From positions 186,001 to 250,000 of the forward strand of contig NZ_PQVF01000005.1 in the NCBI RefSeq assembly GCF_002920915.1: a DNA stretch of 64,000 nucleotides, written 5' to 3'. The first letter of the stretch is position 1. Each line of letters opens with the position of its first letter. The notes under the pieces were generated by a model, which saw nothing but the letters and a program-made list of their open reading frames with translations, ran no database searches and was not told where the DNA came from. This DNA comes from Solitalea longa (GTDB taxonomy: Bacteria; Bacteroidota; Bacteroidia; Sphingobacteriales; Sphingobacteriaceae). Shown here piece by piece: positions 11,185 through 56,335 of this stretch. Made by a program: the position numbers and the translations under genes.

Positions 11185-11215
11185 AAAAGGAGTGCCGTAC
11201 CCCGACACTCCTTTT
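11185..11215 (-). terminator. Terminator of SusCD pair 2
   Basis: AAAAGGAGTG (11185-11194) pairs with CACTCCTTTT (11206-11215) around an 11-base loop, 22 bases past the susD stop. Confidence 0.85.
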
Positions 11216-11236
11216 ACTAACATTTTTTATTTCTAA

Positions 11237-12853
11237 TTATTGAACTGAAGAAGTACAATAGTTTTTGTCTTTATCCCACCATACATTGGTAGAAACTTTA
11301 TCAGCCCCTCCTAACAATTGAACACCAGCATTATAATTAGTTTGGTTGTTCAGAGACTCGCTTTGAGGAAAAATCTGACGACTTATAAAGTTCTTTGGAT
11401 CTTTAATATCAAATGTTGCAGGGAAAGTACCCGCACCCGGATCACGCTCTTTTGGCACATCAAAAGCAGGTAAATTTAATCTGCGTTTATCGTTCCAAGC
11501 CTGTAAAGAAACGTCAGGGAAATTAGCAATATACTTTTGAGTGATGATCTTCTCCAACTTTGTATTTCCTGCTCCGGTAGCATCATCATAACTAGCAGAA
11601 GTACCCCATGCATTTTTTGCATTTGAAGCTAAATATGAATTAACATTCCCTGCATTCCAAGCAGCAAAAGAGGCTTTCACACCGTTTTCATACCAAGTTT
11701 TTGCATCTGTCGCTATAAAACCGCGCTCAGCTGCTTCGGCTAACATAAAACACACTTCAGGATAAAGGAATAAATCAATTTTACGTTTATCACTTGAAAG
11801 TATATTAACTTCACTCATATAGGCATTAGTTGAGCCGATATTAACATGCTCACCTGTTGGCAAACCTGGATAAACCCCTACCCATTTTTTTCCAGTCACA
11901 CTCGGATCAAAATAGATCGAACCACGAGGATCGACATCAGAAGGATGGGTTTCCGCAGATCCTGCATATGCCACACCACCAATTCCGGTAAGAATTTTTT
12001 GGAAAGAACTGGTCATTACCATTTTCTCACCCCAACCAACCTGGTACATATAGTAATTATAAGCATTACCCCAACCTGTGGTACCAGCAATTTTGGCGTC
12101 ATTGCCTTGTTGCATTACTCCGGCGGCAAAAGCAGCTTCAGCTTGAGCCTTACATAATTGCGGATTTACCTCAGATACTTTCAAAGCCAAACGTAAACGC
12201 AACGAGTTTGCAAACTGTTTCCATTTAGTAATATCTCCGAAATAGATAGGATCTTCTGCTGTTAAGAAATCCTTTCCAGGGCTAAACTGTTTTACTGCGG
12301 CATCCAACTCAGCAAAGAAAAAGTTATACTGCGCTTCCAAAGATTCGTAAGCAGGATTTGCTTCGGCAGGACTCTTTGGAAAAGGAATTGGACCAAAAAA
12401 GTCAGTAGCTTGAGACTGAATATAAACTCTCCAAACTCTCGCCAAGGCAACACCGTTCTGAGCCATTGGATTATCCTTACCTTGAGCAATAACTGTATTT
12501 AATGTACTCAACCATTGGTAATGAGCTTTCCAATAGTCACCATTCCATCCTCCATTAGGCGTATAGTTTCGGGTTGTCCAGCCGCCAGATGGATTAATGT
12601 ATTGAGAATAAAAGTCGATGTTCAAATTTTTAATACGCTCATGCAAGTGAGCAGCGCCAACTAAACCTCCGTTTAATGTAAAATTCATGTCAACACCATA
12701 ACGTAAAACGGTACCAATTGTTGACTTGTTAAAATCATACATGTCAGCCGTTGGCTGGTTAGGGTTATCATTTAACCCATCCAGACCTTGCTCGCAACCC
12801 GTCAAAAGGACAACACCAGCAAGAATCCATGATGATAATATATATTTTTTCAT
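11237..12853 (-). CDS. SusD-like outer-membrane lipoprotein (SusD-like_2 type), pair 2
   Basis: 538 residues, somewhat longer than its neighbours. Lipobox VLLTGC (Cys20), then EQGLDGLNDNPNQPT, the subfamily's opening. Mid-protein motifs TDFFGPIPFPKSPAE, WKQFANSLRLRLALKV and FLYPEVCFMLAEAAERG correspond to the helical SusD core. The shared NVWWDK comes near the end but is followed by ten further residues (DKNYCTSSVQ at the very end), a small C-terminal extension not seen in pairs 1 and 3. It lies 13 bases after its susC. It should cap the SusC barrel and bring the ligand in. Ligand unknown. Confidence 0.9.
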   Translation of the reverse strand: MKKYILSSWILAGVVLLTGCEQGLDGLNDNPNQPTADMYDFNKSTIGTVLRYGVDMNFTLNGGLVGAAHLHERIKNLNIDFYSQYINPSGGWTTRNYTPNGGWNGDYWKAHYQWLSTLNTVIAQGKDNPMAQNGVALARVWRVYIQSQATDFFGPIPFPKSPAEANPAYESLEAQYNFFFAELDAAVKQFSPGKDFLTAEDPIYFGDITKWKQFANSLRLRLALKVSEVNPQLCKAQAEAAFAAGVMQQGNDAKIAGTTGWGNAYNYYMYQVGWGEKMVMTSSFQKILTGIGGVAYAGSAETHPSDVDPRGSIYFDPSVTGKKWVGVYPGLPTGEHVNIGSTNAYMSEVNILSSDKRKIDLFLYPEVCFMLAEAAERGFIATDAKTWYENGVKASFAAWNAGNVNSYLASNAKNAWGTSASYDDATGAGNTKLEKIITQKYIANFPDVSLQAWNDKRRLNLPAFDVPKERDPGAGTFPATFDIKDPKNFISRQIFPQSESLNNQTNYNAGVQLLGGADKVSTNVWWDKDKNYCTSSVQ

Positions 12854-12866
12854 ATTAGTTTACTTA

Positions 12867-15800
12867 TTAGAATATCACGTTAAGATTAAAACCAACGCTG
12901 CGTAAAGTTGGCATACTACCAAACTCAATACCTTGCGCATTACTATTTGAGTATCCTGCCTCAGGATCAAAGCCTTTAGTTTTGCTATAGATCATGAATG
13001 CATTACGTGCTACCAGACTCAATTTAGCTGAAGAAAAAGGAGATTTGCTCATTAGGCCTTTTGGTAAAGAATAACCTAAAGAAACTTCACGTAAACGAAC
13101 ATTCGTAGCATCATAGATCCAAGGTTCAGTTCCATTGCCTAATCTGCCCCAATAAAGTTCTGCTTTTGTCTCAACTGTGTTCGGGGTCCCCCCAGCAGTT
13201 ACACCTTTTACCAACATTTTATCACGTCCCTCTAAAGTTTCCTTCAAAGTTCCAGCAGTCATCCCATTATTTATAGAACCCATATACACTTCACCACCAT
13301 AACGCATATCTACTTGGAAGCCCAAATCAAAGTTGCCATAAGTAAAGTTGTTATTTAATCCGGCCATCCACTTAGGATTGAAATTGCCTAATTTTTCAAA
13401 TTCAGTACCGAATGTTGGTAATCCTTTATCGTCTACAACAATGTTGTTTTTATCATCTCTTACATATTTACGTCCATAAAGGTCACCATAAGCGCCACCT
13501 TCTTTAGCTGTAATTTGCAAGAAGCCATTAGTACTATTGTCGTTTAGCAATTGAACTTTAGTATCTTCTGTCAATTTCACGATTTTATTAGTATTCTTCG
13601 CGAAATTAAGAGCCACGTTCCAATCCAGTTTTTCAGTTTTAACCGGGTTAGCAGAAAGAACAACCTCAATACCTTTGTTGTTAACTAAACCAGCATTCTT
13701 GTAATGGAATTCATATCCATCAGAACCTGAACTCTGAACTTTTAAGATTTGATTTTTAGAATCTTTATTATAGTATCCTAAATCAAGACCAATTCTGTTA
13801 TGTAAAGCCTTTAACTCTAAACCAAACTCATAAGATTCAACAAGCTCATTTTTAAGATCATACAATGCTTTTGTATTTGAAGCATTAGAGTTTATGATTT
13901 GGATAATGTTTCCGTTTTGATCAGTTACATTCTTTACAGTAATGTTCATGTAATTCATCAACTGGTAAGCAGCTGCATCGTTACCAACCTGAGCCCATGA
14001 TGCACGTAATTTACCATATGATATTGGGCCTAAGTTTTTGCCGTTACGTTCAAGCATTTCTGAGAAAACCCAACTTGAACTTAGAGATGGATAGAAGAAT
14101 GAACGATTTTCCGGAGAAAGGGTTGAAGTCCAGTCATTTCTTCCTGATAAATCCAAATAAAGGAAGTTTTTATAGCCGAATGAAGCTGTTCCGTATAATG
14201 AGTTAATACGTTTTAAAGTATGAGCATCATTAACGGTTGGAACAAGGCTATTAGTAAGGTTGAAGAAATTTGGAATAAGTAACCCGTTTGAGTTAGAAAA
14301 CAAAAGGTCAGTTCTTTGGTACATGGTGTTACCACCTGCTGTTGCATTAAAGCTAACTGATGAAGAAATAGGCTTGTTAACTGAGAAAAGTACATCCGTG
14401 TTTGATTCGCTATACTTATCATCAGTAACATTGTATGTACCCGACTGTTCCCAATATGGAGTATTAGTTGCCTGACGTAAATTATACTGTCCAGTATACA
14501 TATCCAAGCCTTGACGAACCTGAACGTTGAACCATTGTGTGAAATCGTATTTAAACGATACAAAGCCCATTGAACGGTTACGACGGTCGTCGTTTGTATT
14601 ATTGTAAGCCGCCCAGTATGGATTTCTTACTAATCCGCTATAATTAGACGTCCAAGATAAAGGTTTACCAGAAACATCTGCTCCGTCAACACTTGTACCT
14701 GAAGGGAAAGCATAATTCGCTGTAGATTTTAAATCAGTAAAATGTACTGAACGAGGCATGATCAGATAATTTCTAAAAATATTATCTGGATCGGCAGCAA
14801 CTTTTGTTCTGTTTTCTGTTTTCTGATTTGAGAATGAAATTTTAGCATCTACAGAGAACTTTTCATTCAATTTGCCTGTTCCTCTTAAGGTAAATGAGGT
14901 CTTGTTAAAGCCACTGTTTGGAACGATACCTTTGTTATCATTTCTTGTTAACGCAGCACGGAAGGTTGTATTCTCATTCCCTGTTGCCATTTCAAATGAA
15001 TTGGTTAACGTAGTACCGGTTTGAATAAAATCAGAAAGATTATTGGCTCCTGGAGAATAAGCTACACTTTTACCAGTGTAATCAGTCACTTTCTGACCAT
15101 CCATTTTACCACCCCAGCTTGCCGCTGCATTTTTATCAAACGCTCCGCTAACACCTTGTCCGTAAACATTCTGGTATTCAGGAGTTTGCATAGGGTTATC
15201 AAAGGTCAGGTTTGCATTATAAGCTAAAGAAACACCGCCTTTTTTACCCTTTTTAGTGGTAAACATAATTACACCGTTACCAGCACGAGAACCGTAAAGA
15301 GCGGCCGCAGCAGGTCCTTTTAAAACAGACACTGATTCGATATCATCACTGGATACATCATTGATACCAGATCCTTTATCAATTGATTTATTACCCCAGA
15401 AATCTGCTGTAGCGCCTGAAAAGTTATCAATAGGAACTCCATCAACAACAATTAGCGGCTGATTGTTACTTCCCAAAGAACTATTTCCACGAAGAACGAT
15501 TCTTGAAGAACCGGTTGGACCGTTACCATTCTGTTTAATTTGCAAACCTGCAACTTTACCAGAAAGTGTACTTACCACATTTGGATCTTTAACACGGGTT
15601 AAATCATCACCTTTAACTTCAGATACAGAATAACCTAAAGCTTTTTTCTCTCTTTTAATACCTAACGCCGCCACAACAACTTCACCAAGTTGTTTTGAAT
15701 CTGAAACCAAGGCAACGTTTACAGTAGCTTGGGTACCAAGCTTAACTTCTTTTATGGCATATCCCACAAATGAAAAAACTAAGGTGCTGCCAGTAGCTGC

Positions 15801-15992
15801 AGAGATGGAGTACTTACCATCAATATCAGTTTGGGCAGCCATAGTTGTGCCTTTTACCATGATGGTAACCGAAGGCAGCGGCTGATTGTCTTCGGCCGAA
15901 GTAACCGTACCCGTTATGGTACGATTCTGGGCTGACGCTACTGTTGTGATAAGCAACAATAGAGACATGAGTTTAAGTAGCAATTGTTTCAT
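12867..15992 (-). CDS. SusC/RagA family TonB-dependent porin, pair 2
   Basis: 1041 residues. Signal peptide ending VASAQ (about residue 22); regulatory-like domain about 23-95 (TITGTVTSAEDNQP, VGYAIKEVKLG); QLGEVVVAALGIKREKKALG joint; plug with VSTLSGKVAGLQI, IVLRGNSSL, PLIVVDGVPIDN and LYGSRAGNGVIMFTTKKG; barrel ending in LNVIF. No STN domain. The AALGIKREKKALGY stretch, shared in form with pairs 1 and 3, marks these three as one SusC subclass that travels with SusD-like_2 lipoproteins. First gene of a two-gene operon. Confidence 0.93.
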   Translation of the reverse strand: MKQLLLKLMSLLLLITTVASAQNRTITGTVTSAEDNQPLPSVTIMVKGTTMAAQTDIDGKYSISAATGSTLVFSFVGYAIKEVKLGTQATVNVALVSDSKQLGEVVVAALGIKREKKALGYSVSEVKGDDLTRVKDPNVVSTLSGKVAGLQIKQNGNGPTGSSRIVLRGNSSLGSNNQPLIVVDGVPIDNFSGATADFWGNKSIDKGSGINDVSSDDIESVSVLKGPAAAALYGSRAGNGVIMFTTKKGKKGGVSLAYNANLTFDNPMQTPEYQNVYGQGVSGAFDKNAAASWGGKMDGQKVTDYTGKSVAYSPGANNLSDFIQTGTTLTNSFEMATGNENTTFRAALTRNDNKGIVPNSGFNKTSFTLRGTGKLNEKFSVDAKISFSNQKTENRTKVAADPDNIFRNYLIMPRSVHFTDLKSTANYAFPSGTSVDGADVSGKPLSWTSNYSGLVRNPYWAAYNNTNDDRRNRSMGFVSFKYDFTQWFNVQVRQGLDMYTGQYNLRQATNTPYWEQSGTYNVTDDKYSESNTDVLFSVNKPISSSVSFNATAGGNTMYQRTDLLFSNSNGLLIPNFFNLTNSLVPTVNDAHTLKRINSLYGTASFGYKNFLYLDLSGRNDWTSTLSPENRSFFYPSLSSSWVFSEMLERNGKNLGPISYGKLRASWAQVGNDAAAYQLMNYMNITVKNVTDQNGNIIQIINSNASNTKALYDLKNELVESYEFGLELKALHNRIGLDLGYYNKDSKNQILKVQSSGSDGYEFHYKNAGLVNNKGIEVVLSANPVKTEKLDWNVALNFAKNTNKIVKLTEDTKVQLLNDNSTNGFLQITAKEGGAYGDLYGRKYVRDDKNNIVVDDKGLPTFGTEFEKLGNFNPKWMAGLNNNFTYGNFDLGFQVDMRYGGEVYMGSINNGMTAGTLKETLEGRDKMLVKGVTAGGTPNTVETKAELYWGRLGNGTEPWIYDATNVRLREVSLGYSLPKGLMSKSPFSSAKLSLVARNAFMIYSKTKGFDPEAGYSNSNAQGIEFGSMPTLRSVGFNLNVIF

Positions 15993-17939: not shown

Positions 17940-20900
17940 TTAGAATTTGAAGTTTAAGTTTAAACCAAAACTTCTGGTTGAGGGAACTCCTCCGAGCTCC
18001 AAACCCTGAGCTGCTGTATTGTTGTAATTTGATTCAGGATCGATATTAGTGGTATGCTTCATTAATACGGCCAGGTTACGTGCCACGAAACTTATCTTTA
18101 ACCCCTGAATCTTATTGTTGAACATAGAAAGAGGAAAATCATAACCAAGAACTAGCTGACGTAATTTGATAAAGCTTGCATCTTCTACAAACTGGCCAGA
18201 TACGTTTGAGCCGAAGTTGGCATAATAGCTTTGAGCATCAAATCCTGCTTTATCCCTGTCAACTAATGTTTCCTGGGTTAATCCTGCTCCTGTTGCGTAC
18301 GCATTGGTGCCGGAAAAGATTTTAGCTCCCCATTTTCCATCTATCAGGAATGATAAATTAAAGTTTTTGTATTTGAATTCATTGCTTAAACCAGTGTTAT
18401 ACTTGTAGTTACCCGAACCATAAGCAATTAAATTTCCGCGTAATGGTACGCCATTTGGACCCTTTAAGATATTTCCACTTTCGTCCCTGCTATAATCAAA
18501 AGCCATGACCTGGGAGGCTTCCTTACCAACTATTTGCTGAATAAAGGCTGTTTCAGTACGCCCAATGCCAATTTGTATACTAGTTAAATCGCCGGCAAGA
18601 CTTTCAACTTTACTTTTATTCACTGATCCGTTAAGTGAAACATTCCAGGTGAAATCATTATTTCTAATTGGTGTTCCCGTTAATAGCAACTCCCATCCTG
18701 AGTTCGTTAACCTACCAACATTCAATACTGCTGAAGGGTAACCAGTTGCAACTGAGGTTGTAACTGGCACAATGTCATCATTGATCTTTTTATTATAATA
18801 AGTAAGATCGATTCCTAATCTGTTTTGGAAAAATTTAACTTCCGTTCCAGCTTCAAATTCCGTGATCGCTCTTGGTTTCAATTCGGCATTAGGAATTGAA
18901 CCATTGGTTATTTGTCCGATCGGGATTCCGTTGATAGTACCAGCAATATTATAGTTTAATGTTGTTTGATACGGAGAATCTCCTCCTCCACCAACTTCGG
19001 CATAGCCAACCCTCACTTTACCATAACTAAGTGTATTTGACTTTAAGAATTCTGAGAAGACGAATGAGCTGCTTACCGCAGGATATAAATAAGATACTTT
19101 ATCAGAACTAGGCGATGCCAGTGTTGAATACCAATCATTACGTAATGAAAGGTTCAAGTAGAGGAAATTTCTGTATCCCAAATCTGCCGTAGCATAAATA
19201 GAATTTATTCTGGATCTAAAATCAAAGTAAGAATTGGTTTTATTAGCTGTATTAGGTATAGTATATAAGAACGGAATTGAAAATGACGAACCGGAAATAT
19301 TAGTAATTTCATTGTCGCGCTTCATCATATTTGCACCGATATTAGCATCAAGTGTTAGATCTTTAGCTATCGCACGACTTACTCCTACCAATACATCAGC
19401 ATTTAACTCTGAGAAGCGCGAACTATTGTCTCTCATATCACCCAAATCACGATAGGCTGTACCCGTTGGAGTTACACTAGTAAACCGATCATTATAGGCA
19501 TCCTGTACTACACGACCCTGAACAAACAACCAATCAAATATGTTATAACGTAAACTTGCGTTAGCAATAATACGGTTACGATGAGTGTCATTCACAAATT
19601 TTGCCGATGCAAAGTAAGGGTTAGTTGTAAAGGTATTTCCTGTGAATTGAATTTCACTGCCGTCAGGATGGTATCCTGGTGCAAGAACCTGACTTGCCTG
19701 AATACTGTTAGCAACGAAAGCAATACCGAAGTTAGAGTTACCCGGTGCATCAGAGAGGCTTGGTCTATTTTTTGCATCCTCAATTGTATAATTTACAACT
19801 ACGTTTGCTGTTACTTTTTTACCTAGTTTAGCTGTTGATCCAAGATTAAAACTCCATCTGTCTAAAGAAGAATTAGGAATAACTCCATTATTATCCAATT
19901 TGCTGGCAGAGAAGCGGAAAGCAGCTGTTTCAGTACCGCCGTTTAAAGCGAGTGTATTGGTAAATGTTCCTCCTGTCCTATAAAAATCCTTTATATTATT
20001 TTTTTGGGCAACATAAGGTCTAGAAACTCCATCCAATTGGATAACACTTGAACCATCAAGCCGGGCACCCCAACTTGATGCTCCATCATTAAGTGCCTGC
20101 TCGACTGAAGTAGGTTTTAAGCCTTGATGACCAGAACCATAAACATATTGATAATTAGTAAAATCATTAATTTCATCAACCTGATAAGTTGTATTGAAAT
20201 CAACACCAATACCTTTTTGAGCCTTTCCGCTTTTGGTAGTGATCATAATTACTCCTGCACCGGCTCTTGACCCATACAAGGCAGCGGCAGCAGCACCTTT
20301 CAGCACACTAATTGATTCGATATCATCAGGGTTAATGTTTGAAATACCATCCCCTAAATCCGCACCGCCATATTGCCCCGCAGAACCTTCAGTGCTAGCG
20401 GTACCGGTGATTATGGCACTACCTGAATTGCTATTATTCATGGGAACCCCATTCAACACATATAATGGTTGTGATGAACCGGTTAATGAAGAAGAGCCCC
20501 TAATAATTACGTTTGCTGCACCTCCAGGACCTGAAGCAGGAGTTGCAACACTTACACCGGCAACTTTTCCGGCTAATGCATTTGCCACGTTAACTTCCCG
20601 GGCTTGTGTAAGTTCATCCCCCTTAACCTGGCCTGTGGCATAACCCACGCTTCGGGCTTCCTTTTTAATACCCAAGGCCGTTACTACCACCTCCCCCAAT
20701 TGCTTGGAGTTGAGCGACAAAGTGACATTGATAACATTGCTGGAGCCAAGTTTTACTTCTTTGGTTACATAGCCAACGTATGTGAACGCTAGCGTGGCTC
20801 CATCTGAAGCTTTGATGCTGTACTTGCCATCCAAATCGGTTTGAGTGGCAGTAGCGGTTCCCTTAACCACAACAGTCACCGACGGCATTGGTTGTTTGTC

Positions 20901-21005
20901 GTCTTCAGAAGTAACTGTTCCTGTGATTGTTCTTTGTTGGGAAAGAGCTGTGGCGGAAATACCCGAGAGTAGCACCAACAGCAGAATGCGTAGATACTTT
21001 TTCAT
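17940..21005 (-). CDS. SusC/RagA family TonB-dependent porin, pair 3
   Basis: 1021 residues. Signal peptide to about residue 23 (SATALSQ), regulatory-like domain about 24-96 (TITGTVTSEDDKQP, VGYVTKEVKLG), QLGEVVVTALGIKKEARSVG joint, plug with VANALAGKVAGVSV, VIIRGSSSLTG, PLYVLNGVPMNN and LYGSRAGAGVIMITTKSG, and a barrel ending LNLNFKF. Note Asn instead of the usual Asp in VLNGVP. No STN domain. It is transcribed divergently from padR, 412 bases away, across a strongly AT-rich spacer, so the two may share regulatory DNA. Confidence 0.93.
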   Translation of the reverse strand: MKKYLRILLLVLLSGISATALSQQRTITGTVTSEDDKQPMPSVTVVVKGTATATQTDLDGKYSIKASDGATLAFTYVGYVTKEVKLGSSNVINVTLSLNSKQLGEVVVTALGIKKEARSVGYATGQVKGDELTQAREVNVANALAGKVAGVSVATPASGPGGAANVIIRGSSSLTGSSQPLYVLNGVPMNNSNSGSAIITGTASTEGSAGQYGGADLGDGISNINPDDIESISVLKGAAAAALYGSRAGAGVIMITTKSGKAQKGIGVDFNTTYQVDEINDFTNYQYVYGSGHQGLKPTSVEQALNDGASSWGARLDGSSVIQLDGVSRPYVAQKNNIKDFYRTGGTFTNTLALNGGTETAAFRFSASKLDNNGVIPNSSLDRWSFNLGSTAKLGKKVTANVVVNYTIEDAKNRPSLSDAPGNSNFGIAFVANSIQASQVLAPGYHPDGSEIQFTGNTFTTNPYFASAKFVNDTHRNRIIANASLRYNIFDWLFVQGRVVQDAYNDRFTSVTPTGTAYRDLGDMRDNSSRFSELNADVLVGVSRAIAKDLTLDANIGANMMKRDNEITNISGSSFSIPFLYTIPNTANKTNSYFDFRSRINSIYATADLGYRNFLYLNLSLRNDWYSTLASPSSDKVSYLYPAVSSSFVFSEFLKSNTLSYGKVRVGYAEVGGGGDSPYQTTLNYNIAGTINGIPIGQITNGSIPNAELKPRAITEFEAGTEVKFFQNRLGIDLTYYNKKINDDIVPVTTSVATGYPSAVLNVGRLTNSGWELLLTGTPIRNNDFTWNVSLNGSVNKSKVESLAGDLTSIQIGIGRTETAFIQQIVGKEASQVMAFDYSRDESGNILKGPNGVPLRGNLIAYGSGNYKYNTGLSNEFKYKNFNLSFLIDGKWGAKIFSGTNAYATGAGLTQETLVDRDKAGFDAQSYYANFGSNVSGQFVEDASFIKLRQLVLGYDFPLSMFNNKIQGLKISFVARNLAVLMKHTTNIDPESNYNNTAAQGLELGGVPSTRSFGLNLNFKF

Positions 21006-28362: not shown

Positions 28363-31326
28363 TTAAAAACCTACATTTACACCTAAAATAATTGTTCGTG
28401 ACTGAGGAGGAGTATAGAAATCATGCCCCAGGTTCACATTACCGGTATAGCTTGCGTTTACCTCAGGATCATATCCTGTGTAATTTGTGAAAGTGAATAA
28501 ATTTTGAGCCGATAGATAAACACGAAGATTATCAATACCTAAACGTTTAGTAGTTGCCAGAGGGATGTTATACCCTAAGGTTACCGCTTTAAAACGCAAA
28601 TAAGAACCGTCTTCAACCCAACGTGATGATTTACCTGCACCGTTTCCTTCATATAAACGAGGCTGAGGAATATTGGTGATCTGACCAGGACTTTTCCAAT
28701 AATTCATTTGATCAACTGTCTGATTGTCGAAATAATCACCGTTAACTGATTGGAAGAAACCTGCAATATTGTAAAGGTCGTTACCTGAAACAAACTGTGT
28801 TTGAATATCCAGATCAAAATTATGATAAGAGAACTTGTTGCCTAAACCGCCTGAGAAGGCTGGGTTAGGATCACCCAAAATCATTTCATCAGCAGCATCG
28901 TAATCATTGGTCTTAGATCCGTCTTTATTCATATAAAGTGCATCTCCATTCTCCGGATCAACTCCGGCATACTTCTTTCCGTAAAAGATACCATATGGCT
29001 GACCCTCTTCGATACGACTTAAGGTTCTTGACCCTCCAGTAATTACAGCTCCATTCATGTTGGTAACCTTATTTCGGTTAAATGAAATATTAAAGCTGGT
29101 TGACCATTTAAATTCGTGAATTAAATTTTGAGTGTTTATGCTAAACTCTATCCCACGGTTTGTTAAGTCACCAATGTTTTTGGTTATACCCGTGAAGCCA
29201 TTTGAAGCTTGTGTTGGTAGAAATAACAATAAATCGTTAGTTCTCTTTTGATATACATCTATCTCGCCGGAAATACGATTATTAAACAAGCCATAATCAA
29301 CACCTATATTTCCCTGAGCCGTTCTTTCCCAGCTCAAATCAGGGGCGCCTAAAGTAGCGGGAGTTATACCTGCCTGATCCGCATAGAAAACAGAGTTATA
29401 TAAAGAGTGAGACGCAAAGTTTCCGATCTCTGAGTTTCCGGTAACACCATAACTTGCACGAAGTTTTAAGAAACTAATTGTACTATTATTTGCCAAGAAG
29501 TTTTCTTCACTGGCAAGCCATCCGGCTGAAATTGATGGAAACGCTCCATAACGATTATCCTTACCAAATCTTGAAGAACCATCGACACGTAGAGTGGCCC
29601 CAAACAAGTAGCGATCCTTAAATTTATAATTACCACGTAAGATATAAGAAACAAAGCTATAGCCAGTTTCGGTAGTTGATCCTGCCGAAATCACCGCTGC
29701 ATTCTGAATTTTTTTGAATGTATCGCTCGCGAAGTTTTTCCCTGAAACAGAAGTTCCTAATAGCGTGCTTTCCTGGTAATCAAAACCAGCCAACACTTGT
29801 AAGTTATGGAATTGATTAAGGGTTTTATCCCACGTCAGGTTATTTTTGAACACCCAGTTGCTTGAACGAACTTGATTGTCGCTCGAGAAGCCTTGCGGAC
29901 CTCCATCTAATGTTTTCCGTCCATTCCATACACTTTCCTCGAGATTCAGATAATCCAAACCAAACTCCGAACGGAATGTCAATTCAGGAATAAGGTTCCA
30001 ACTTAAATAAGCATTTCCTAATGTTCTGAAATTGGTTTGTGTATTAAATGCATTGTCGAGGTTAATCAGGTTATTATAGTAAAGTGTTGCATTATTGTAT
30101 TCCCCACCAGCATCATACATTGGCTGAATTGGGGGAATTGCATTCAACTGTACAGGGTTGGCGAATTCGTTATCGGCTGATATACGATCGTTTATAGATT
30201 TCACCAGGTTAATTGAAGTACCTATTTTAACACTTTTGCTTATTCCATGATCTAAATTCAAGCGGCCACTCATCCTTTTAAAATTATTCCCAAGAATTAC
30301 GCCCTTTTGATCATTTAAAGTCGAGCTTACAAAGAAGGTTGTTTTAGCATCGCCACCTGTTACAGATGCTGAATATTGCTGAACAGCACCTTTTTGAAAT
30401 GCCGAATTGTTCCAATCTGTCTCAAATGATTTGTTCCAGTCATCACTTCTTGATTCTGCTTCAAACTCTTCGGCAATATCATAGCCCATATTCTCAGCAG
30501 CTGCAGTAAATAACTCGCGGTATTGTGCTGGATTTAAGAATTGACGTAAATGAGTGGCATCACTAACACCGCCAGAAGCACTAAATGAAACTTTGGTTTT
30601 ACCAACTTTACCTTTTTTTGTTGAAACCATAATTACACCGTTAGAAGCTCTGGATCCGTAAATGGCTGCAGAAGCAGCATCCTTCAACACCTCTATCGAT
30701 TCTATATCATCCGGATTAATGTCTGCCATAGGGTTCATAGGTTCTCCTTGAGAGCCTAAATCTTCAGATACTACCGGAATGCCATCAATAACAAACAACG
30801 GTTGATTACTTGCAGATATTGAAGATATCCCCCTAACACGAATATTTACACCCTGGCCTAGCTTACCACTCCCCGAGTTAATGTAAACACCTGTGGTACG
30901 CCCCTGCAACGCACTCTCAAAAGAGCTCAACGGCTGTTCTTTAAACTCTTTCGAGGTTACTTTCCCAATTGATCCGGTTAAATCTCTCTTTAATTGAGTA
31001 CCATAACCAACCACGACTACTTCTTGCAGTTGTTTCTGATCCGCTAGTAGTGAGACATTTATAACCTCTCTACCCGCTACTTTAATTTCCTGACCGGCAA
31101 AACCTACGGCTTGAAAAACCAAAGTTGCCGAGGCATCAACTTTAATTGAAAACTTTCCGTTTCCATCTGTTTGAGCGCCATTCGAAGTCCCTTTCACTAA
31201 AACATTTGCGCCAGGTACTGGTGAACCATCTTCCTTAGATGTAACCGTACCGCTTACCTGCTTTATTTGCGCCCAACCTAATAGGCAAAAGCAATTAAAT
31301 AGTAGAAATAGTAAAACTTTCCTCAT
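28363..31326 (-). CDS. SusC/RagA family TonB-dependent porin, pair 4
   Basis: 987 residues, shorter than the other three. Signal peptide to about residue 19 (CLLGWA), regulatory-like domain about 22-93 (VSGTVTSKEDGSP, VGFAGQEIKVAG), the QLQEVVVVGYGTQLKRDLTG joint, plug with ESALQGRTTGVYI, IRVRGISSIS, PLFVIDGIPVV and IYGSRASNGVIMVSTKKG, barrel ending ILGVNVGF. The VVGYGTQ joint puts it in the large RagA subclass, unlike the TALG subclass of pairs 1-3. No STN domain. First gene of the operon with SusD pair 4, and 479 bases of gene-free DNA lie upstream. Confidence 0.93.
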   Translation of the reverse strand: MRKVLLFLLFNCFCLLGWAQIKQVSGTVTSKEDGSPVPGANVLVKGTSNGAQTDGNGKFSIKVDASATLVFQAVGFAGQEIKVAGREVINVSLLADQKQLQEVVVVGYGTQLKRDLTGSIGKVTSKEFKEQPLSSFESALQGRTTGVYINSGSGKLGQGVNIRVRGISSISASNQPLFVIDGIPVVSEDLGSQGEPMNPMADINPDDIESIEVLKDAASAAIYGSRASNGVIMVSTKKGKVGKTKVSFSASGGVSDATHLRQFLNPAQYRELFTAAAENMGYDIAEEFEAESRSDDWNKSFETDWNNSAFQKGAVQQYSASVTGGDAKTTFFVSSTLNDQKGVILGNNFKRMSGRLNLDHGISKSVKIGTSINLVKSINDRISADNEFANPVQLNAIPPIQPMYDAGGEYNNATLYYNNLINLDNAFNTQTNFRTLGNAYLSWNLIPELTFRSEFGLDYLNLEESVWNGRKTLDGGPQGFSSDNQVRSSNWVFKNNLTWDKTLNQFHNLQVLAGFDYQESTLLGTSVSGKNFASDTFKKIQNAAVISAGSTTETGYSFVSYILRGNYKFKDRYLFGATLRVDGSSRFGKDNRYGAFPSISAGWLASEENFLANNSTISFLKLRASYGVTGNSEIGNFASHSLYNSVFYADQAGITPATLGAPDLSWERTAQGNIGVDYGLFNNRISGEIDVYQKRTNDLLLFLPTQASNGFTGITKNIGDLTNRGIEFSINTQNLIHEFKWSTSFNISFNRNKVTNMNGAVITGGSRTLSRIEEGQPYGIFYGKKYAGVDPENGDALYMNKDGSKTNDYDAADEMILGDPNPAFSGGLGNKFSYHNFDLDIQTQFVSGNDLYNIAGFFQSVNGDYFDNQTVDQMNYWKSPGQITNIPQPRLYEGNGAGKSSRWVEDGSYLRFKAVTLGYNIPLATTKRLGIDNLRVYLSAQNLFTFTNYTGYDPEVNASYTGNVNLGHDFYTPPQSRTIILGVNVGF

Positions 31327-49586: not shown

Positions 49587-49961
49587 CTACTCCCAATTTA
49601 GAGCCCCTTTTTTAATGATGTAAATAAAGCCCAGTAACAGGAAGATCATGAACGTGAACATTTCAAGCATTCCTAAAATGCCTAGTTCACGAAAATTTAC
49701 GGCCCAAGGGTACATGAAAATTACTTCAACATCGAACAACACAAACAGTATTGCAACCAGGAAGTACTTAACTGACATGGGATGACGAGCATTTCCCTGA
49801 ACTTCCACTCCCGACTCGAATGGGGTTAATTTATCAGAAGTTTTACGCTTAGGACCGATAAGGTGGGTAGCAAGCATTGTAACTACCACAAAACCAACCG
49901 CTACAAAAAACTGGAAAGCTACCGGTGCATAGTTAACAGGCAATTGCTCTAGTAATAACAT
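49587..49961 (-). CDS. nuoA: NADH-quinone oxidoreductase subunit A
   Basis: Three-helix membrane subunit near the quinone chamber; first gene of the nuo operon. 124 residues. The KLTPFESGVEVQGNARHPMS loop and the FDVEVIFMYPWAVNF motif with conserved acidic residues are present. A candidate promoter lies 24 bases upstream. Confidence 0.96.
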   Translation of the reverse strand: MLLLEQLPVNYAPVAFQFFVAVGFVVVTMLATHLIGPKRKTSDKLTPFESGVEVQGNARHPMSVKYFLVAILFVLFDVEVIFMYPWAVNFRELGILGMLEMFTFMIFLLLGFIYIIKKGALNWE

Positions 49962-49984
49962 ACAATAGGATTTGAAATCTTTTG

Positions 49985-50019
49985 CAAAAATAAAAAAGAG
50001 AAGGTAAGTTTAAAACAAA
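49985..50019 (-). promoter_or_regulatory. Candidate promoter of the nuo operon
   Basis: On the minus strand TTTG (50019-50016), 23 bases, then TATTTTTG (49992-49985), an exact TAnnTTTG box. The predicted start near 49980 leaves a leader of about 18 bases to nuoA. The -33 element lies inside the terminator hairpin of the upstream operon. Confidence 0.4.
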
Positions 50020-50029
50020 CCTTCTCTTT
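49995..50029 (-). terminator. Terminator of the exbB-tonB-TPR operon
   Basis: AAAGAGAAGG pairs with CCTTCTCTTT, extended by GTTT/AAAC after a small internal loop. The left-hand A-run gives a U-tract on the minus strand. Confidence 0.8.
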
Positions 50030-50076
50030 GGAGCAATATTTTATTAAGAAATTTTAATTTCTTGACTGAATCGTCA

Positions 50077-51702
50077 CTACTTATTCTTGGCGCCTGGACC
50101 ATTTAATGCCTTTAAAACTTCTAAGGCTTGCGGGTCATTCGGAGCCAATTCTAAAATTTTATTGAAATAGACTTTTGAAGCAGCAACATCTTTTTGAATA
50201 TTAAAGGTATAATCGCCCATGTAGCGATAAGCCTCAATAAGATATTTCACGTTCTTTTGCTTATCAGCTTCGCCAAGTTCAATAACCTTCTCGTAGTACG
50301 GACGAGCTAAACCTTGTTTATTTCCTTCGTCCATTCTATAGTTTGCTAAAGCACGGTAAGAATACCCTTGTACATATGTTGGGCTTAATTCATTAACCTT
50401 TGCAAAAGCACTATCTGCCTTTTGATATTTCTCCGAATATAATGCCGATAAACCGTAATACAAATAATCTACAGGCTGCTTTTTAACCTCTGTTTTTTCA
50501 AAATAAGCTTCATATGTTTTAATAGCAGCAGGATACTGTTTTGCCAAATAGCTCATCTTTCCTAACATCGGGTACAAGTCGGTTCTTGTGGGATCTTTAT
50601 CAATAGCTTTTTGCAAATATGAAATTGCTAGAGAATCCATCTTATTATCTGAAAGGATTTTAGCCATATACTCATAATCCGTATTGATAAGACTTGCTTC
50701 TGCTTGTTTTGTAAAGAAAGTATTCATCGCGTCCAATGCCTCTTTTGGCTTTTTGATCTCATAAGCCGAATAAGCCAGCAAACGATACATTACCGGTTTA
50801 ACCTGGCATGTTTTCATTAACAGATTAATTTCATCATACGCTGCCTGATATTGTTTTGCAAGAAACAACATACTCGCATAACGCGTATTGGAGTTGCAAG
50901 AGGCGTCAGTTAACGCTAAATACTTATTCTTATAAATATCTACAGCTTTCGCGTATTGGCCTGAAGAATAATACAAAACGGCTAATTCGCGGTAAGCAGG
51001 TCCATAATTCGGATCGATCGATATTGCCTTTTCTAACGGAGCTAATGATGATTCATAACTTTGAGCACCACGATAGATCAAGGATTGAGACACATAAGCT
51101 CTTAAATAATTTTTATCCAGATCTAATGCTTTGTTATAATTAGCAATTGCATTGTTTGCATCTTTTTTTAATAAATAAGCATCTCCTAAAACAGTATACA
51201 CCTCAGCACTCTTAGGAGCAATTTTTTTAGCCTGCTCAATATAACCTATGGCAGTTTCAATCGATGCAGCATCGCCACCCTCAGCGGCTAATGCATAGGC
51301 ACGTGCTGTTTCAAGATACGGACGATAGTCTTTTTCCTTTTGGCCTAAAGCAATCGCCTTATCAAATAATGGTTTTGCCGCGTCAAAGTGTTTATTTAGA
51401 ATTTCTAATTTCCCTTGTCCCACATAGTTTAGGGGAAACTGGGGATTTACTGCCACACCTTTATCAAAAAATACCTGAGCAGAATCGGGTTCAATAGTTT
51501 TTAAGTAAACATCACCCATGTAATAAAAGCTCTCTGCTGTGGTAGCAGGATTCTGTGCAAGTTTTGCTAATAACGCCTTTGCCTTTTCGTACTGCTCTAC
51601 TTCAATTGCTTTTCGTGCATCACTAATAGACTGGCTATAAGCAAACCCTGCTAACAAAACTAAAGCAGAAACTATGTTTAAAGCCCTCTTAATCATTTTC
51701 AT
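50077..51702 (-). CDS. Exported TPR-repeat protein
   Basis: 541 residues with a signal peptide (MKMIKRALNIVSALVLLAGF, cleaved near residue 23). The rest is a chain of about twelve tetratricopeptide-like helix pairs, e.g. AEVYTVLGDAYLLKKDANNA, YGPAYRELAVLYYSSGQYAK, TDLYPMLGKMSYLAKQYPAA. It is a periplasmic scaffold, not an enzyme as far as can be seen. Last gene of the TonB operon, 14 bases after the PstS-like gene. Its position suggests that it binds the TonB, ExbD or PstS-like proteins. Confidence 0.85.
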   Translation of the reverse strand: MKMIKRALNIVSALVLLAGFAYSQSISDARKAIEVEQYEKAKALLAKLAQNPATTAESFYYMGDVYLKTIEPDSAQVFFDKGVAVNPQFPLNYVGQGKLEILNKHFDAAKPLFDKAIALGQKEKDYRPYLETARAYALAAEGGDAASIETAIGYIEQAKKIAPKSAEVYTVLGDAYLLKKDANNAIANYNKALDLDKNYLRAYVSQSLIYRGAQSYESSLAPLEKAISIDPNYGPAYRELAVLYYSSGQYAKAVDIYKNKYLALTDASCNSNTRYASMLFLAKQYQAAYDEINLLMKTCQVKPVMYRLLAYSAYEIKKPKEALDAMNTFFTKQAEASLINTDYEYMAKILSDNKMDSLAISYLQKAIDKDPTRTDLYPMLGKMSYLAKQYPAAIKTYEAYFEKTEVKKQPVDYLYYGLSALYSEKYQKADSAFAKVNELSPTYVQGYSYRALANYRMDEGNKQGLARPYYEKVIELGEADKQKNVKYLIEAYRYMGDYTFNIQKDVAASKVYFNKILELAPNDPQALEVLKALNGPGAKNK

Positions 51703-51716
51703 AATCTAAATTTATT

Positions 51717-52694
51717 TTATTTAAACAAATCATTATCTGATATCTGAACTAAACGAACTGGCATAGTAGCGGGAACCAAACCCGACTTCAACACAATACG
51801 TTGTCCTTTATCTCCAGCAATGAAAGCTGCAAAACCTGTTCCTAAGCCCATGTATGATTCCCGACTTAGCAGGTACACTCGTCTTACCAATGGATAAAAG
51901 CCTTGTGCAATGTAAGCTTGGTAAGGTTTACGAAACTGCCCAGAACCTGGTTGCCCATCATCGGGTGCAATTGCAGCAATTTTAACTTTTTTCAAAAATC
52001 CTGTAACCGCAGAATCATCAGCATCGCTTATCCAATTCACTCCAATAATTCCTAGTGAATTCTTATGCGTGCTAACATACTCAATAACTTCCTTATTAGT
52101 TTTAACAGAGTAGAAATTTTTTGCCGAAAATTGATTCTTACCTGCTAATTCTTTCATATACCTCACAGTACTGGAGTTTGGATTATCAAACACAATTGTA
52201 ATTTCTTCATTACTATTCGCCTTATCCAGTTGATTCCACTTAGTAATATTACCGGCAAACAAGTCTCTAAGGTTAGCCATTGAAAAGGTCGAATCATTAT
52301 TTGCAGGGTTTACAATTAACGCAATGGCGTCGATAGCAAACTTAGTACTCCGAACTACCAACTTTTTAGCCTGAAGAGGTTTGAGTTCATCAGCTGTTAA
52401 CTGACGGGTTACGATAATTGCTCTTGCCGAATCATTAAGAAGGTCAGCAACAGCCTCTCCTTCGGATTTGAAATGAGCATTAATTTTAGCTGCAGGATAG
52501 ATACCATGAAAAACATCCAATTCTGCCTGAACAATTGGCTCAAAGGTCTCATCAACCGACATGCTGATTTCTCCGGAAGTGGTTGTATCCAACGTTTTTT
52601 GACTAGAGTTATTTCCACAGCCAACATTTAAGACTGCGAAACAAAAAGCAAGTCCAAACAAGAATATCCCTTTTGAAAAATGTAACCTATTCAT
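51717..52694 (-). CDS. PstS-like substrate-binding lipoprotein
   Basis: 325 residues. Lipobox VLNVGC (Cys near 26). The mature part is a two-lobed periplasmic binding protein of the PstS/PBP-like type: ISMSVDETFEPIVQAELDVF at the first lobe, RAIIVTRQLTADELKPL, DAIALIVNPANND with the hinge, FAGNITKWNQL, and GQFRKPYQAYIAQGFYPLVR. It lacks the clear phosphate-binding Ser/Arg set that I could assign with confidence. No pstCAB genes are adjacent. Instead it follows tonB and a small membrane protein, whose end it overlaps by eight bases. Ligand and partner are unknown; a receptor or sensor role in the TonB system is possible. Confidence 0.8.
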   Translation of the reverse strand: MNRLHFSKGIFLFGLAFCFAVLNVGCGNNSSQKTLDTTTSGEISMSVDETFEPIVQAELDVFHGIYPAAKINAHFKSEGEAVADLLNDSARAIIVTRQLTADELKPLQAKKLVVRSTKFAIDAIALIVNPANNDSTFSMANLRDLFAGNITKWNQLDKANSNEEITIVFDNPNSSTVRYMKELAGKNQFSAKNFYSVKTNKEVIEYVSTHKNSLGIIGVNWISDADDSAVTGFLKKVKIAAIAPDDGQPGSGQFRKPYQAYIAQGFYPLVRRVYLLSRESYMGLGTGFAAFIAGDKGQRIVLKSGLVPATMPVRLVQISDNDLFK

Positions 52695-52926
52695 ACTCTG
52701 AATTATCCTTTTTTATAAGCCTATAACTTCTAAAGAGCCCATATAGTATGATGCTCCCTCCAAGTATCAACTTATTGGTTGGTGAAAGATTCGCTAAAAC
52801 ATTGGGCATAAACATTATCATGCTTCCCAAAACCAGGTAGGCAAGGATAAACACTACCCCTAAAATCAGCAAAAATCGCTCTTTTGGCGATTTTTGCTTA
52901 AAGTTATTATCAAACTGTTGCTCCAT
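52687..52926 (-). CDS. Small membrane protein of the TonB operon
   Basis: 79 residues with two hydrophobic segments (about 21-42, LILGVVFILAYLVLGSMIMF; and about 51-66, KLILGGSIILYGLFRS). Charged N-terminus (MEQQFDNNFKQKSPKERF) and C-terminus (RLIKKDNSEYE), both probably cytoplasmic. It starts 24 bases after tonB and overlaps the next gene by eight bases, so translation is probably coupled. No known family recognised. Confidence 0.75.
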   Translation of the reverse strand: MEQQFDNNFKQKSPKERFLLILGVVFILAYLVLGSMIMFMPNVLANLSPTNKLILGGSIILYGLFRSYRLIKKDNSEYE

Positions 52927-52950
52927 TAGAGCTTAATTGATGTTTGTAAA

Positions 52951-53775
52951 TTAATCTAACCTGAACATGATTGGTAAGCTGAAGTGTACACGCACAGATT
53001 TACCATTTTGTTTACCTGGCTTCCACTTAGGCATTGCTTTCACAACGCGGGCAGCTTCTTCATCACATCCCGAACCGATACCGCGCAGTACTTGCACGTC
53101 GGTAATAGAACCATCCTTTTCAACTACAAAGGTTACCGTTACACGACCCTGAACGCCATTTTCACGAGCCATTGGCGGATACCTTAACGTTTTACCAATG
53201 AATTTACCAATTTGTTCCATACCTCCAGGATATTCTGGATTTTCCTCTACGTGATAGAAAATCTCCTGGGTATCTTCAACAACCTCATTACCAGTACCAG
53301 TACCAATAACAGGTTCATCAACTTGAGGCGGAGCGTCATCATTACCTTTTACGGTTGCTGTACTAACTTCTGCCTTAATTTCATCCTGTACTGGAGGTGG
53401 TTCTTCATCACGCACTTCTTCATCCTTTTTAATAACCGGTGGCGTAAACTTAATAGTTGAACGCACCGGAGGAGGAGGAGGCTCCGAAGGTGGAGGAGGC
53501 GGAGGAGGTTCGTTTTTGTTAACCGGAGGTGGAGCCATTAGTTCATTGGACTGCACCACTTTAATATCATTGTCTTCAGGAACAATTCCTGAAACAATGC
53601 GAGCAATAACTGGAGCTGCTACGCCTAAAGAGAAGAAAATAATAGCCAATATGGTACCTTTCTTCATGTTCTTAGAATACTGCTTACGCAGATCATAAGC
53701 ACCATAGGCCTTATTCCGTCCTTCAAAGACGTATTCGCACCATCTGCTATCTTCTAAATCAATCTTTCCTGCCAT
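52951..53775 (-). CDS. tonB: TonB energy-transducing protein
   Basis: Couples the proton-motive force from an ExbB/ExbD motor to outer-membrane receptors. 274 residues. N-terminal cytoplasmic stretch (CEYVFEGRNKAYGAYDLRKQ, typical of Bacteroidetes TonB), one membrane helix (about 39-60), a Pro-rich periplasmic linker with poly-Pro blocks (about 82-125), and a TonB C-terminal domain (about 185-274: YPGGMEQIGKFIGKTLRYPP, GRVTVTFVVEKDGSITDVQV, AMPKWKPGKQNGKSVRV). 20 bases after the second exbD. Confidence 0.95.
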   Translation of the reverse strand: MAGKIDLEDSRWCEYVFEGRNKAYGAYDLRKQYSKNMKKGTILAIIFFSLGVAAPVIARIVSGIVPEDNDIKVVQSNELMAPPPVNKNEPPPPPPPSEPPPPPVRSTIKFTPPVIKKDEEVRDEEPPPVQDEIKAEVSTATVKGNDDAPPQVDEPVIGTGTGNEVVEDTQEIFYHVEENPEYPGGMEQIGKFIGKTLRYPPMARENGVQGRVTVTFVVEKDGSITDVQVLRGIGSGCDEEAARVVKAMPKWKPGKQNGKSVRVHFSLPIMFRLD

Positions 53776-53795
53776 TTTTCGACAATGTTTTTATC

Positions 53796-54434
53796 TTACT
53801 TTTGAACGTAAGGATTATCATTAATCATTTTCAAATCACCAGGAGCTATATCAACAATCGCATAGCGACCATTGTTAGTGATATTCATCTCATCAAGGAT
53901 ATCAACAAGATTTTTATATCTTGATTTATCATCTGCCTTAATCAAAATAATTAAGCCATTTTTATAGTTCCTGATGCGAGAATAATTCGCTTTAAACTCA
54001 TCCTCGGTAATTTTACGGTCATTGGCCATCTGTTTGTAAATCCTGATGGAGTCAAGAGCCGGATTGCGTTTACGACTTTCTTCTAACAATATTTTACGAA
54101 TACCATTAGCCGAAAAGTTTGTAACCAAAGGATTTTCCACCTCTTCGCCTATACCGAAGTAGTAAACGATTTGGTCTTTACCGGTTAAAAGGATAGTCAT
54201 CGCCTGAGAAGCTTTGATTTGAGTCTTATCCTTCTCCTCAATATTGTCCTTAACCGGCATATTAATATCCATTACGGATGGTTTGCTCATCGAGGTGGTT
54301 AACATGAAGAATGTGATCAACAAGAAACCAAGGTCAACCATTGGAGTAAAATCCACGCGAGTTGAAAGTTTCTTGCCTCTCTTCTTTCCACCCTTCTTAT
54401 GATCACCGCCCCCGGAGGTAGCTATATCTGCCAT
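53796..54434 (-). CDS. exbD: ExbD-type biopolymer transporter, second copy
   Basis: 212 residues. One membrane helix with VDFTPMVDLGFLLITFFMLT, the segment containing the proton-conducting Asp of ExbD/TolR. The periplasmic domain is longer than in E. coli ExbD (about 141 residues). It has a basic N-terminus (GGDHKKGGKKRGKKLSTR). It sits between the first exbD and tonB, with 20-21-base gaps. Confidence 0.93.
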   Translation of the reverse strand: MADIATSGGGDHKKGGKKRGKKLSTRVDFTPMVDLGFLLITFFMLTTSMSKPSVMDINMPVKDNIEEKDKTQIKASQAMTILLTGKDQIVYYFGIGEEVENPLVTNFSANGIRKILLEESRKRNPALDSIRIYKQMANDRKITEDEFKANYSRIRNYKNGLIILIKADDKSRYKNLVDILDEMNITNNGRYAIVDIAPGDLKMINDNPYVQK

Positions 54435-54455
54435 TGCTCAAATTTCTTTAAAAGG

Positions 54456-55076
54456 TTATAAATTAGGAGCTTGTTCCATATTGGTAATAAAATTGAAACG
54501 GTTAGCCTTTTGAGCCTGTAATGTTGCAATGATATTTTTTACGACTGGATAGTTAGAGTCACGGTCGCCTTTAATAGCAATAACTGCAGTACTATTAGTA
54601 ACACGACGCGATTCAATAACCCAATCTTTCAATTCATTGGTTGCATTTTGAGTAGAGTCGCAAGGAATACCTTTTGTTTCTTCATTGTATTTCTTACGTT
54701 GATCTTTGCTCATTGCAAGGTAACTTTTCAATTCATTCAGAGGAGCGCCGAAGTTAGCTAACTTCGAAAACTCTTCTTTTTCCGCAGGAGTAAAAGACAA
54801 TTGCCTTTTAGACGCGATATTATCCAATAGGGCTTTTCTAAATTCCGTTCCTTCTAATCCAAAGAATATCTTTCCTGTTTTATCCACAGAAATTAAAATT
54901 ACTTTGGTATCAGGAAGTTTTATTTCCGAAATAGAAGACGGAGTGTCAACTACAATAGCTTCCTCTGGCTTAAATTGAGTTGCCAACATAAAGAAGGTCA
55001 ACAACAAGAAAGCCACATCGGTCATTGCCGTCATATCCACCCACGTACTCTTGCGCGGAACTTTAACTTTTCCCAT
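54456..55076 (-). CDS. exbD: ExbD-type biopolymer transporter, first copy
   Basis: 206 residues. TWVDMTAMTDVAFLLLTFFM contains the membrane-embedded Asp. The periplasmic part carries a distinct insertion (KEEFSKLANFGAPLNELKSY, EETKGIPCDSTQNATNELKD) and a GDRDSNYPVVKNIIATLQ segment. Clearly divergent from the second copy, so the two ExbD proteins may form a mixed motor. 69 bases after exbB. Confidence 0.93.
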   Translation of the reverse strand: MGKVKVPRKSTWVDMTAMTDVAFLLLTFFMLATQFKPEEAIVVDTPSSISEIKLPDTKVILISVDKTGKIFFGLEGTEFRKALLDNIASKRQLSFTPAEKEEFSKLANFGAPLNELKSYLAMSKDQRKKYNEETKGIPCDSTQNATNELKDWVIESRRVTNSTAVIAIKGDRDSNYPVVKNIIATLQAQKANRFNFITNMEQAPNL

Positions 55077-55145
55077 CTATCTTATTATTAACGTATAATA
55101 TATCTATTAATTATCTATCAGTCAGACTAATACACAAGCAAAATC

Positions 55146-55982
55146 TTACTTGTGTTTAGCTGCGAAGTTTTGAATGATGCTGTAACCAGCCTCATCAATA
55201 GCATAAGTAATAGTATCGATACGAGTCGTGAAGTAAGCATAGAATACTGCAGCAATTGCAGAGTTACCAATACCTAATGCAGTGTTGATAAGTGCTTCAG
55301 AGATACCTACCGCAAGTGCAGCTGAGTCAGGAGCACCTGCATTACCTAAAGCCGAGAATGCTTTGATCATACCTAATACGGTACCTAATAGAGCGAATAA
55401 AGTTGATACTGATGCTAAAGTAGCAGTGATCACCAAGTTTTTCTCTAACATTGGCAATTCAAGAGTTGTTGACTCTTCAACCTCTTTTTGAATAGCTAAT
55501 ACTTTCTGGTCAACATCCATACCGGTTGCAGTTTCCATTTCTTTGTATTTAACCAAAGTTGCTTTTACTACGTTTGCTACCGAACCTTTTTGAATGTCGC
55601 ACTCTTTAATAGCGGCTTCAACGTTACCTGCGTTCAATAATGAACGAACTTTTGCAACGAATGCCTGAGCAGAACCTTTACCTGAAGCTGCAGAGATTGT
55701 AATAAAGCGCTCAATTGCAATTGTTAGGTTGATCAATACCAATGATAATAAGATTGGTACAACCACACCACCCATGTAGATAAGGCCTAAATAGTGACCA
55801 GCACCTTCTGCTATAGGATGTCCACCTACTACACCACCCTCAAAATTTGACGGGCTACCTAAAATAAATTTGAAAATCAAAATACCTACTAAAATACAAG
55901 TAGGGATTACCCAAGCCGCAAAATTTGAATTGAACTTAGCGTTCTCTACTTTCTTAGCTGTTTGTTGTGCTGCGTTTGCCAT
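55146..55982 (-). CDS. exbB: ExbB/TolQ/MotA-type proton channel
   Basis: Five-subunit channel that, with ExbD, powers TonB. 278 residues. Three membrane segments: about 22-42 (WVIPTCILVGILIFKFILG), 72-94 (VVVPILLSLVLINLTIAIER) and 195-240 (ASVSTLFALLGTVLGMIKAF). The TLLGTV-like TVLGMI motif and the LINTALG helix line the pore. It is an ExbB with a slightly longer N-terminal region than E. coli. First gene of the operon; a -7-like box lies about 75 bases upstream. Confidence 0.93.
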   Translation of the reverse strand: MANAAQQTAKKVENAKFNSNFAAWVIPTCILVGILIFKFILGSPSNFEGGVVGGHPIAEGAGHYLGLIYMGGVVVPILLSLVLINLTIAIERFITISAASGKGSAQAFVAKVRSLLNAGNVEAAIKECDIQKGSVANVVKATLVKYKEMETATGMDVDQKVLAIQKEVEESTTLELPMLEKNLVITATLASVSTLFALLGTVLGMIKAFSALGNAGAPDSAALAVGISEALINTALGIGNSAIAAVFYAYFTTRIDTITYAIDEAGYSIIQNFAAKHK

Positions 55983-56335
55983 TTTTTAAAAAAATTTAAT
56001 TAATCTTAAATCACTTAATTAAGTTTCAATTATGCTACATTATTTTTTGAGCGTTTGCAAAAATATTAGTTTTTCGATAATAAAAAATTTTTTTTCAACG
56101 AATCTTAATTATTTAATATTGACCAAAGTAATCCCTGTCAAAATTTAATTCTTCCACCTTGACTTAAATCAATAATAAATAGTTTTCCGCCCTTAAGATT
56201 AAAAACATTATTGAAGATATCAAGCTTTAACAATTATTCTTATGATGCTCAGCTGATTAAATTTCCATAATTTATTTCAAAAAAAAAGTCCCAACCGAAG
56301 TTGGGACTAATTGCAAACACAAACTATTATAAAAA
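55983..56335. other. Gene-free spacer between exbB and pckA
   Basis: About 350 bases, AT-rich. TATTTTTG on the minus strand (56065-56058) is a -7-like box for exbB but has no TTG at the right distance (the nearest is about 30 bases away). The terminator of pckA is at 56287-56308. Nothing else seen. Confidence 0.5.
56287..56308 (-). terminator. Terminator of pckA
   Basis: AGTCCCAAC-cgaa-GTTGGGACT, a 9-bp stem with tetraloop; the A-run to its left is a U-tract on the minus strand. Confidence 0.9.

Follow-up and report, generated by a model that had tools for sequence, protein, structure and literature searches.

Ton motors related to the one described here act in hemin and iron uptake in Bacteroidota. 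As stated in the accessible sections of the respective papers, disruption of tonB2 in R. anatipestifer strongly decreased hemin uptake (PMC4446302), and inactivation of exbD2 in F. psychrophilum impairs iron-restricted growth (PMC9331221). The R. anatipestifer operon, exbB2-exbD-exbD-tonB2, matches the operon reported below in its four motor genes and their order, and likewise has a 'phosphate' binding protein gene downstream. In the accessible text of PMC4446302 this gene features only in the flank and as a target of RT-PCR, and the small and TPR genes considered here go unmentioned; one of our survey loci (L119) shares with that operon the upstream neighbour leuS. A candidate counterpart in B. 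thetaiotaomicron is the row BT2664-68 (substrate-binding protein, ExbD, ExbB), which was down 2.7–3.1-fold under iron depletion in the available part of PMC10434189.

A search of the open-access literature (subscription papers and preprints lay outside its scope) returned no function for the three accessory genes. Within the accessible sections, their linkage to the motor was found only in passing, in the R. anatipestifer report of 2015 and the B. thetaiotaomicron transcript table. Excerpts of other papers describe hemolysis mutants that include Riean_0317, a TPR gene, and exbD1 (PMC7881567), and mention a TPR gene together with TonB-ExbBD that is highly expressed in all samples (PMC9723704); neither TPR gene was matched to ours. 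The portions available of PMC10719396 and PMC11345257 concern Rhodanobacter and ExbB/ExbD only, respectively.

Two further motor systems bear comparison, both from the accessible part of PMC12204202. The Tol-Pal operon (order tolQRAB-pal-cpoB) resembles the present operon in its motor, transducer, lipoprotein and terminal TPR gene, but our genome has no TolB_N match, and the operon encodes a real TonB domain and no CpoB match. Motor-linked von Willebrand systems likewise place a TPR gene, itself uncharacterised, next to a TolQR-like motor, but use a different transducer, and a PstS-like protein goes unmentioned in that part of the paper.

Results

The window analysed here is a 64,000-nucleotide stretch of the Solitalea longa genome. 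Seven minus-strand genes occupy positions 50077–55982, beginning with exbB (55146–55982, 278 aa), which encodes a MotA/TolQ/ExbB proton channel (PF01618, 90 bits against a cut-off of 22.9; TolQ/ExbB PDB matches). Two exbD genes follow (copy 1, 54456–55076, 206 aa; copy 2, 53796–54434, 212 aa), with PF02472 scores of 65.9 and 63.5 bits (cut-off 25.4), and then tonB (52951–53775, 274 aa), whose product carries a C-terminal TonB domain (PF03544, 81.8 bits, cut-off 24.6; TonB PDB matches). The ExbB-type channel, the ExbD genes and the TonB C-terminal domain of a Ton system are thereby present. The three accessory genes encode a 79-aa two-helix membrane protein (52687–52926; no Pfam match above cut-off), a 325-aa PstS-fold lipoprotein with lipobox Cys26 (51717–52694; PF12849, PBP_like_2, 135.5 bits) and a 541-aa exported TPR protein (50077–51702; TPR_2, 70.7 bits), the last two also modelled. 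From exbB to the TPR gene, the intergenic gaps are 69, 21, 20, 24, −8 and 14 bases, the small and PstS-like genes overlapping by 8 bases. ORF coordinates and Pfam agree with the initial annotation, which had described seven co-directional genes of these identities separated by at most 69 bases.

The operon was also said to be closed by a single terminator, and a stem with a T-run does lie on the minus strand at 49995–50029. The stretch holding it folds at −16.3 kcal/mol (z −5.42); it was absent from the list of a simple terminator scanner. The gene 5′ of the operon is pckA, whose own minus-strand terminator (56287–56308, fold z −5.1) lies between the two. No convincing promoter was found 5′ of exbB, sigma-70-like sites occurring at chance frequency (26 found against 27.0 expected). 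Scanning with a −7 consensus that we take to be of the Bacteroidota type gave an element at 56065–56058, which lacks a partner at the usual spacing; such elements were not enriched in the window (66 found against 85.6 expected). The gene spacing suggests that all seven genes are carried on a single transcript. On the 3′ side lies nuoA, the start of the nuo genes. It directly follows the TPR gene here (49587–51702) and in several other lineages, including some with the motor genes elsewhere (L093, L097, L099, L105).

The genome (4.5 Mb, 36 contigs) contains two ExbB, three ExbD and six TonB_C matches. For the ExbB and both ExbD proteins of the operon, the TolQ/TolR models outscore the ExbB/ExbD models, all scores being below cut-off. 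Judging from the protein families and the published mutants of related operons, the motor would energise TonB-dependent receptors. Among six window ORFs tested, four encode SusC/RagA TonB-dependent receptors (minus strand, 7463–10627, 12867–15992, 17940–21005 and 28363–31326), which are possible clients.

In many Bacteroidota, the motor genes and the three extra genes form one operon. A sample of 198 Bacteroidota genomes, heavy in one family (f16), was searched with the window TPR protein alone (E 1e-20 or better), giving matches in 35 genomes. In every one of these (35/35), a PstS-like gene lies directly upstream on the same strand, 16–335 bases away. The query gave 37 TPR matches in total, two of them extra copies elsewhere; at second TPR copies (L151, L152), the ORFs listed included no motor match.

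Searches with a single sequence understate prevalence, the TPR query finding 35 of the 198 genomes against 64 with a TPR profile; by single-sequence search the small protein was found in 16. With profiles (thresholds E 1e-45 for PstS-like and E 1e-60 for TPR), the PstS-like family was found in 71 genomes and the TPR family in 64. The TPR gene directly follows the PstS-like gene in 63 of these 64; in the exception (G039), a contig end splits the locus. Some of the sequences in the profiles came from survey-genome pairs chosen for adjacency, so the figure of 63/64 is partly circular, while that of 35/35 is not. These adjacencies indicate that the accessory genes are not chance neighbours, and the suspicion that they usually reside elsewhere, which the initial annotation had named as one threat to its proposal, is not borne out: the linkage is common across the phylum.

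The exbB subtype, counted with the ExbB query at E 1e-45 or better, was present in 112 of the 198 genomes among the matches listed. In 50 of the 63 pair genomes it lies on the same strand and no more than 8 kb upstream, and contig breaks may account for a few of the other 13. All 65 genomes with a PstS-TPR pair (the 63, with G039 and G150 added by hand) carry it, and none of the 198 has a pair without it (Fisher p 8e-22, a value that ignores relatedness). The 47 of 112 motor genomes that lack the pair all belong to three families (f16, f14, f27), and the motor therefore does not need the pair. Tandem PstS-like pairs occur in families f14 and f27 (L103, L111, L115, L117, L121), in genomes that have the motor and lack the PstS-TPR pair; the tandem pair at L111 sits beside ferritin-like, GGDEF and SpoIIE/cNMP-binding genes.

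Gene order was then read at 92 loci (L037–L128), for whose annotation profiles had been made from the proteins of the window. The loci were picked by PstS-like similarity, many from survey genomes, so that their counts and those of the survey are not independent. PstS-like and TPR genes are adjacent in 79 of the 92. Relative to these 79 pairs, exbB to tonB lie upstream in 59, downstream in three and beside the pair on the opposite strand in two; four pairs have a TonB-like gene alone nearby, and 11 have no motor gene. A small gene was called directly upstream of the PstS-like gene in 62 of the 79, and inspection of the gaps added nine small-family ORFs (L055, L056, L057, L069, L070, L071, L087, L105, L120). 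A contig search gave 32 loci, two of which (L066, L068) are weak matches from other phyla; in the other 30, PstS-like adjoins TPR without exception. Carriers of the pair include Pontibacter, Rufibacter, Hymenobacter, Mucilaginibacter, Flavobacterium, Saprospiraceae, Crocinitomicaceae and Bacteroidales records.

In five loci (L043, L044, L049, L063, L067) the gene order is altered, yet both gene groups stay together. In eight genomes with a detached pair, the motor loci that were read (L133–L140) have exbB-exbD-exbD-tonB intact on its own, and the operon therefore consists of two modules. Distance-matrix partial correlations over 66 loci were 0.53 for PstS-like/TPR, 0.52 for TonB/ExbD copy 2, 0.41 for TonB/ExbB, 0.39 for PstS-like/ExbD copy 1, 0.34 for TPR/ExbB and 0.07 for PstS-like/TonB. 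These values agree with a division into two modules. They faintly suggest that the pair is only loosely joined to the motor, or that ExbB/ExbD and not TonB provide the connection.

The predicted structure of the lipoprotein (pLDDT 85.5, from 28 sequences) has the PstS fold expected of a phosphate receptor. Its best VIA-align match is the phosphate-bound structure 4gd5_A (Z 28.1, rmsd 2.1, 241 aligned residues), and the best 30 rows are all phosphate-binding proteins by title. With PstS proteins (PDB 4gd5 and 4jwo; E. coli PstS) it shares the fold, export as a (lipo)protein and general residues, but it differs in having acids at the hydroxyl positions of the site, a fixed TPR neighbour and no pst operon around it. 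Of 85 module proteins, counting that of the window, 84 retain the lipobox cysteine, and acids occupy positions that align with the phosphate-site loops of 4gd5 and of the genome's own PstS: 48 (80/85), 49 (78/85), 78 (62/85), 80 (56/85) and 170 (61/85). Four or five of these acids are present in 62 of the 85 and none in the PstS of the genome's own pst operon. The hydroxyl-rich site of a phosphate receptor was accordingly not found, S174 (75/85) and S or T at position 50 (66/85) being kept, together with the general PstS residues R97 (83/85) and E103 (84/85). Residues R97, E103, D122, Y267, P268 and P308 are common to the own pst-operon PstS.

The MAFFT match to E. coli PstS, whose ligand residues we take to include T10, is poor around that residue, and the comparison there rests on the own PstS and 4gd5. 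Loss of E. coli Arg135 was rejected as an argument, as the own pst-operon PstS also lacks Arg there. In a tree, 76 of the 85 module proteins group together with one outsider at a support of 0.57, which does not firmly establish a single origin. The nine sequences outside the main clade all lack acids at 78 and 170 and are all acidic at 48. Against TIGR02136, the window protein scores 94.5 bits, below the cut-off of 206.6.

The genome has a pst operon on another contig (PstS, two permease genes, an ABC ATPase gene and phoU), whereas the neighbours of the window protein are motor genes, and no ABC permease or ATPase gene was found within the motor operon. Since the site residues are altered and the genome has its own pst operon, phosphate transport is probably handled by the latter, and the site of the motor-operon copy has probably changed. 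The initial suggestion of a ligand-sensing lipoprotein that hands over substrate is weakened by the altered site, the lack of ABC genes in the operon and the separate pst operon.

Two other properties of the lipoprotein family were considered. Fusion of PstS-like with the small protein in long ORFs (365–471 aa) was rejected, hydropathy giving at most one membrane-like segment each; we read these ORFs as having over-extended starts. Surface export was likewise rejected, because what we take to be the acid-rich export signal is absent in most sequences (67 of 84 have at most one acid at +2 to +6). The PstS-like protein thus probably faces the periplasm.

In the small-protein family (67 sequences, window included), R66 at the end of helix 2 is invariant (67/67), Y62 is kept in 96% and G34 in 91%. 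Net positive charge was found at the C-terminus in 62 of the 67, at the N-terminus in 40 and in the loop in 41, and these mixed counts mean that the charge rule is not decisive for topology. The TPR protein was modelled with confidence (pLDDT 91.8) as a solenoid with some 30 helices, preceded by a putative signal peptide. It gave no match to the YbgF/CpoB model TIGR02795 at E 0.1, and neither protein matched a named Pfam or NCBIfam family above cut-off that reveals its function.

At a second motor locus of the genome (L132, C5:50000-65000), positions 5041–13773 contain TolQ/ExbB-like and ExbD-like genes, a putative transducer, folC and a TPR protein. The putative transducer (286 aa) has no Pfam or NCBIfam match and scores 24 bits with the TonB profile built here; the TPR protein (1010 aa) has four tol_pal_ybgF stretches (205.8 bits, cut-off 90.1). 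TolB_N (PF04052) has no match in the genome, while the control Bacteroides ihuae matches, so the search works in the phylum. The locus may be a hidden Tol-like system.

Discussion

We propose, with about as much confidence as doubt, that the three genes are an accessory module of a main Bacteroidota Ton motor, in which the PstS-like protein is not a phosphate receptor but serves as an adaptor or regulator. Such a role as an accessory part is suggested because related motors act in hemin and iron uptake and because the genes of BT2664-68 fall together. ExbB and two different ExbD proteins would form a proton-driven motor, with TonB carrying force to outer-membrane receptors. The hairpin in the inner membrane and, in the periplasm, the PstS-like lipoprotein and the TPR solenoid would be a set working with this motor. 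The PstS-like protein may have been recruited from phosphate binding to act on the motor or TonB, and the TPR protein may be a scaffold, for example aiding TonB to reach or choose among many SusC-type receptors. Our observations cover the order and conservation of the genes, a pair that depends on the motor, the PstS fold and the replaced site residues; that the products form a physical complex with a regulatory role is what we infer.

Alternatively, the PstS-like protein could be a real receptor, its ligand being phosphate or some other small molecule, and could sense or collect a substrate of TonB-dependent receptors and pass it on. The fold, its Z score of 28.1 to a phosphate-bound structure and the largely kept R97, E103, S174 and S/T50 speak for this; we consider it unlikely, given the acids in the phosphate-site loops, all five of which the own pst-operon PstS lacks, the position of the pst operon elsewhere with no ABC permease or ATPase gene beside the motor, and the score below the TIGR02136 cut-off. 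The pair might instead serve another envelope process and sit in this operon solely to be co-expressed with a motor whose expression is constant. That 0 of 198 genomes have a pair without the motor subtype, and that linkage outlasts rearrangement in five loci, makes this improbable in our view, despite the pairs detached in 11 of 79 loci, several of them directly before nuoA, and the partial correlations that set the pair apart from TonB.

Nor do we find it at all probable that the operon is a Tol-Pal-like machine for envelope constriction, with a TolQ-R-A-like motor, a lipoprotein and the TPR protein in the place of CpoB. The true TonB_C domain argues against it, as do the lack of a YbgF/CpoB match at E 0.1 in the window TPR protein and the YbgF-like TPR protein at another locus of the same genome; the higher TolQ/TolR model scores of ExbB and ExbD, all below cut-off, and the terminal position of the TPR gene favour it. 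The need for tonB2 in normal hemin uptake by R. anatipestifer, from the accessible part of PMC4446302, also points away from such a machine.

Within the preferred reading of an accessory module, a more specific version, which we regard as quite improbable, is a charge-inverted PstS switch. Its acidic cleft would clamp a basic partner (a Lys/Arg side chain, a peptide terminus or a cation) and, together with the TPR solenoid and the hairpin that bears the invariant arginine, would set when or to which receptor the two-ExbD motor delivers force. If true, a Ton motor would here have a regulatory complex dedicated to it.

In Bacteroidota, few Ton motors drive many SusC-type receptors; the genome studied here encodes two ExbB proteins. 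To our knowledge, it is an open question how a single motor can serve numerous receptors. The motor probably has helper parts, and three conserved, motor-tied genes across many lineages are concrete candidates for parts that may be missing, and ones that can be tested.
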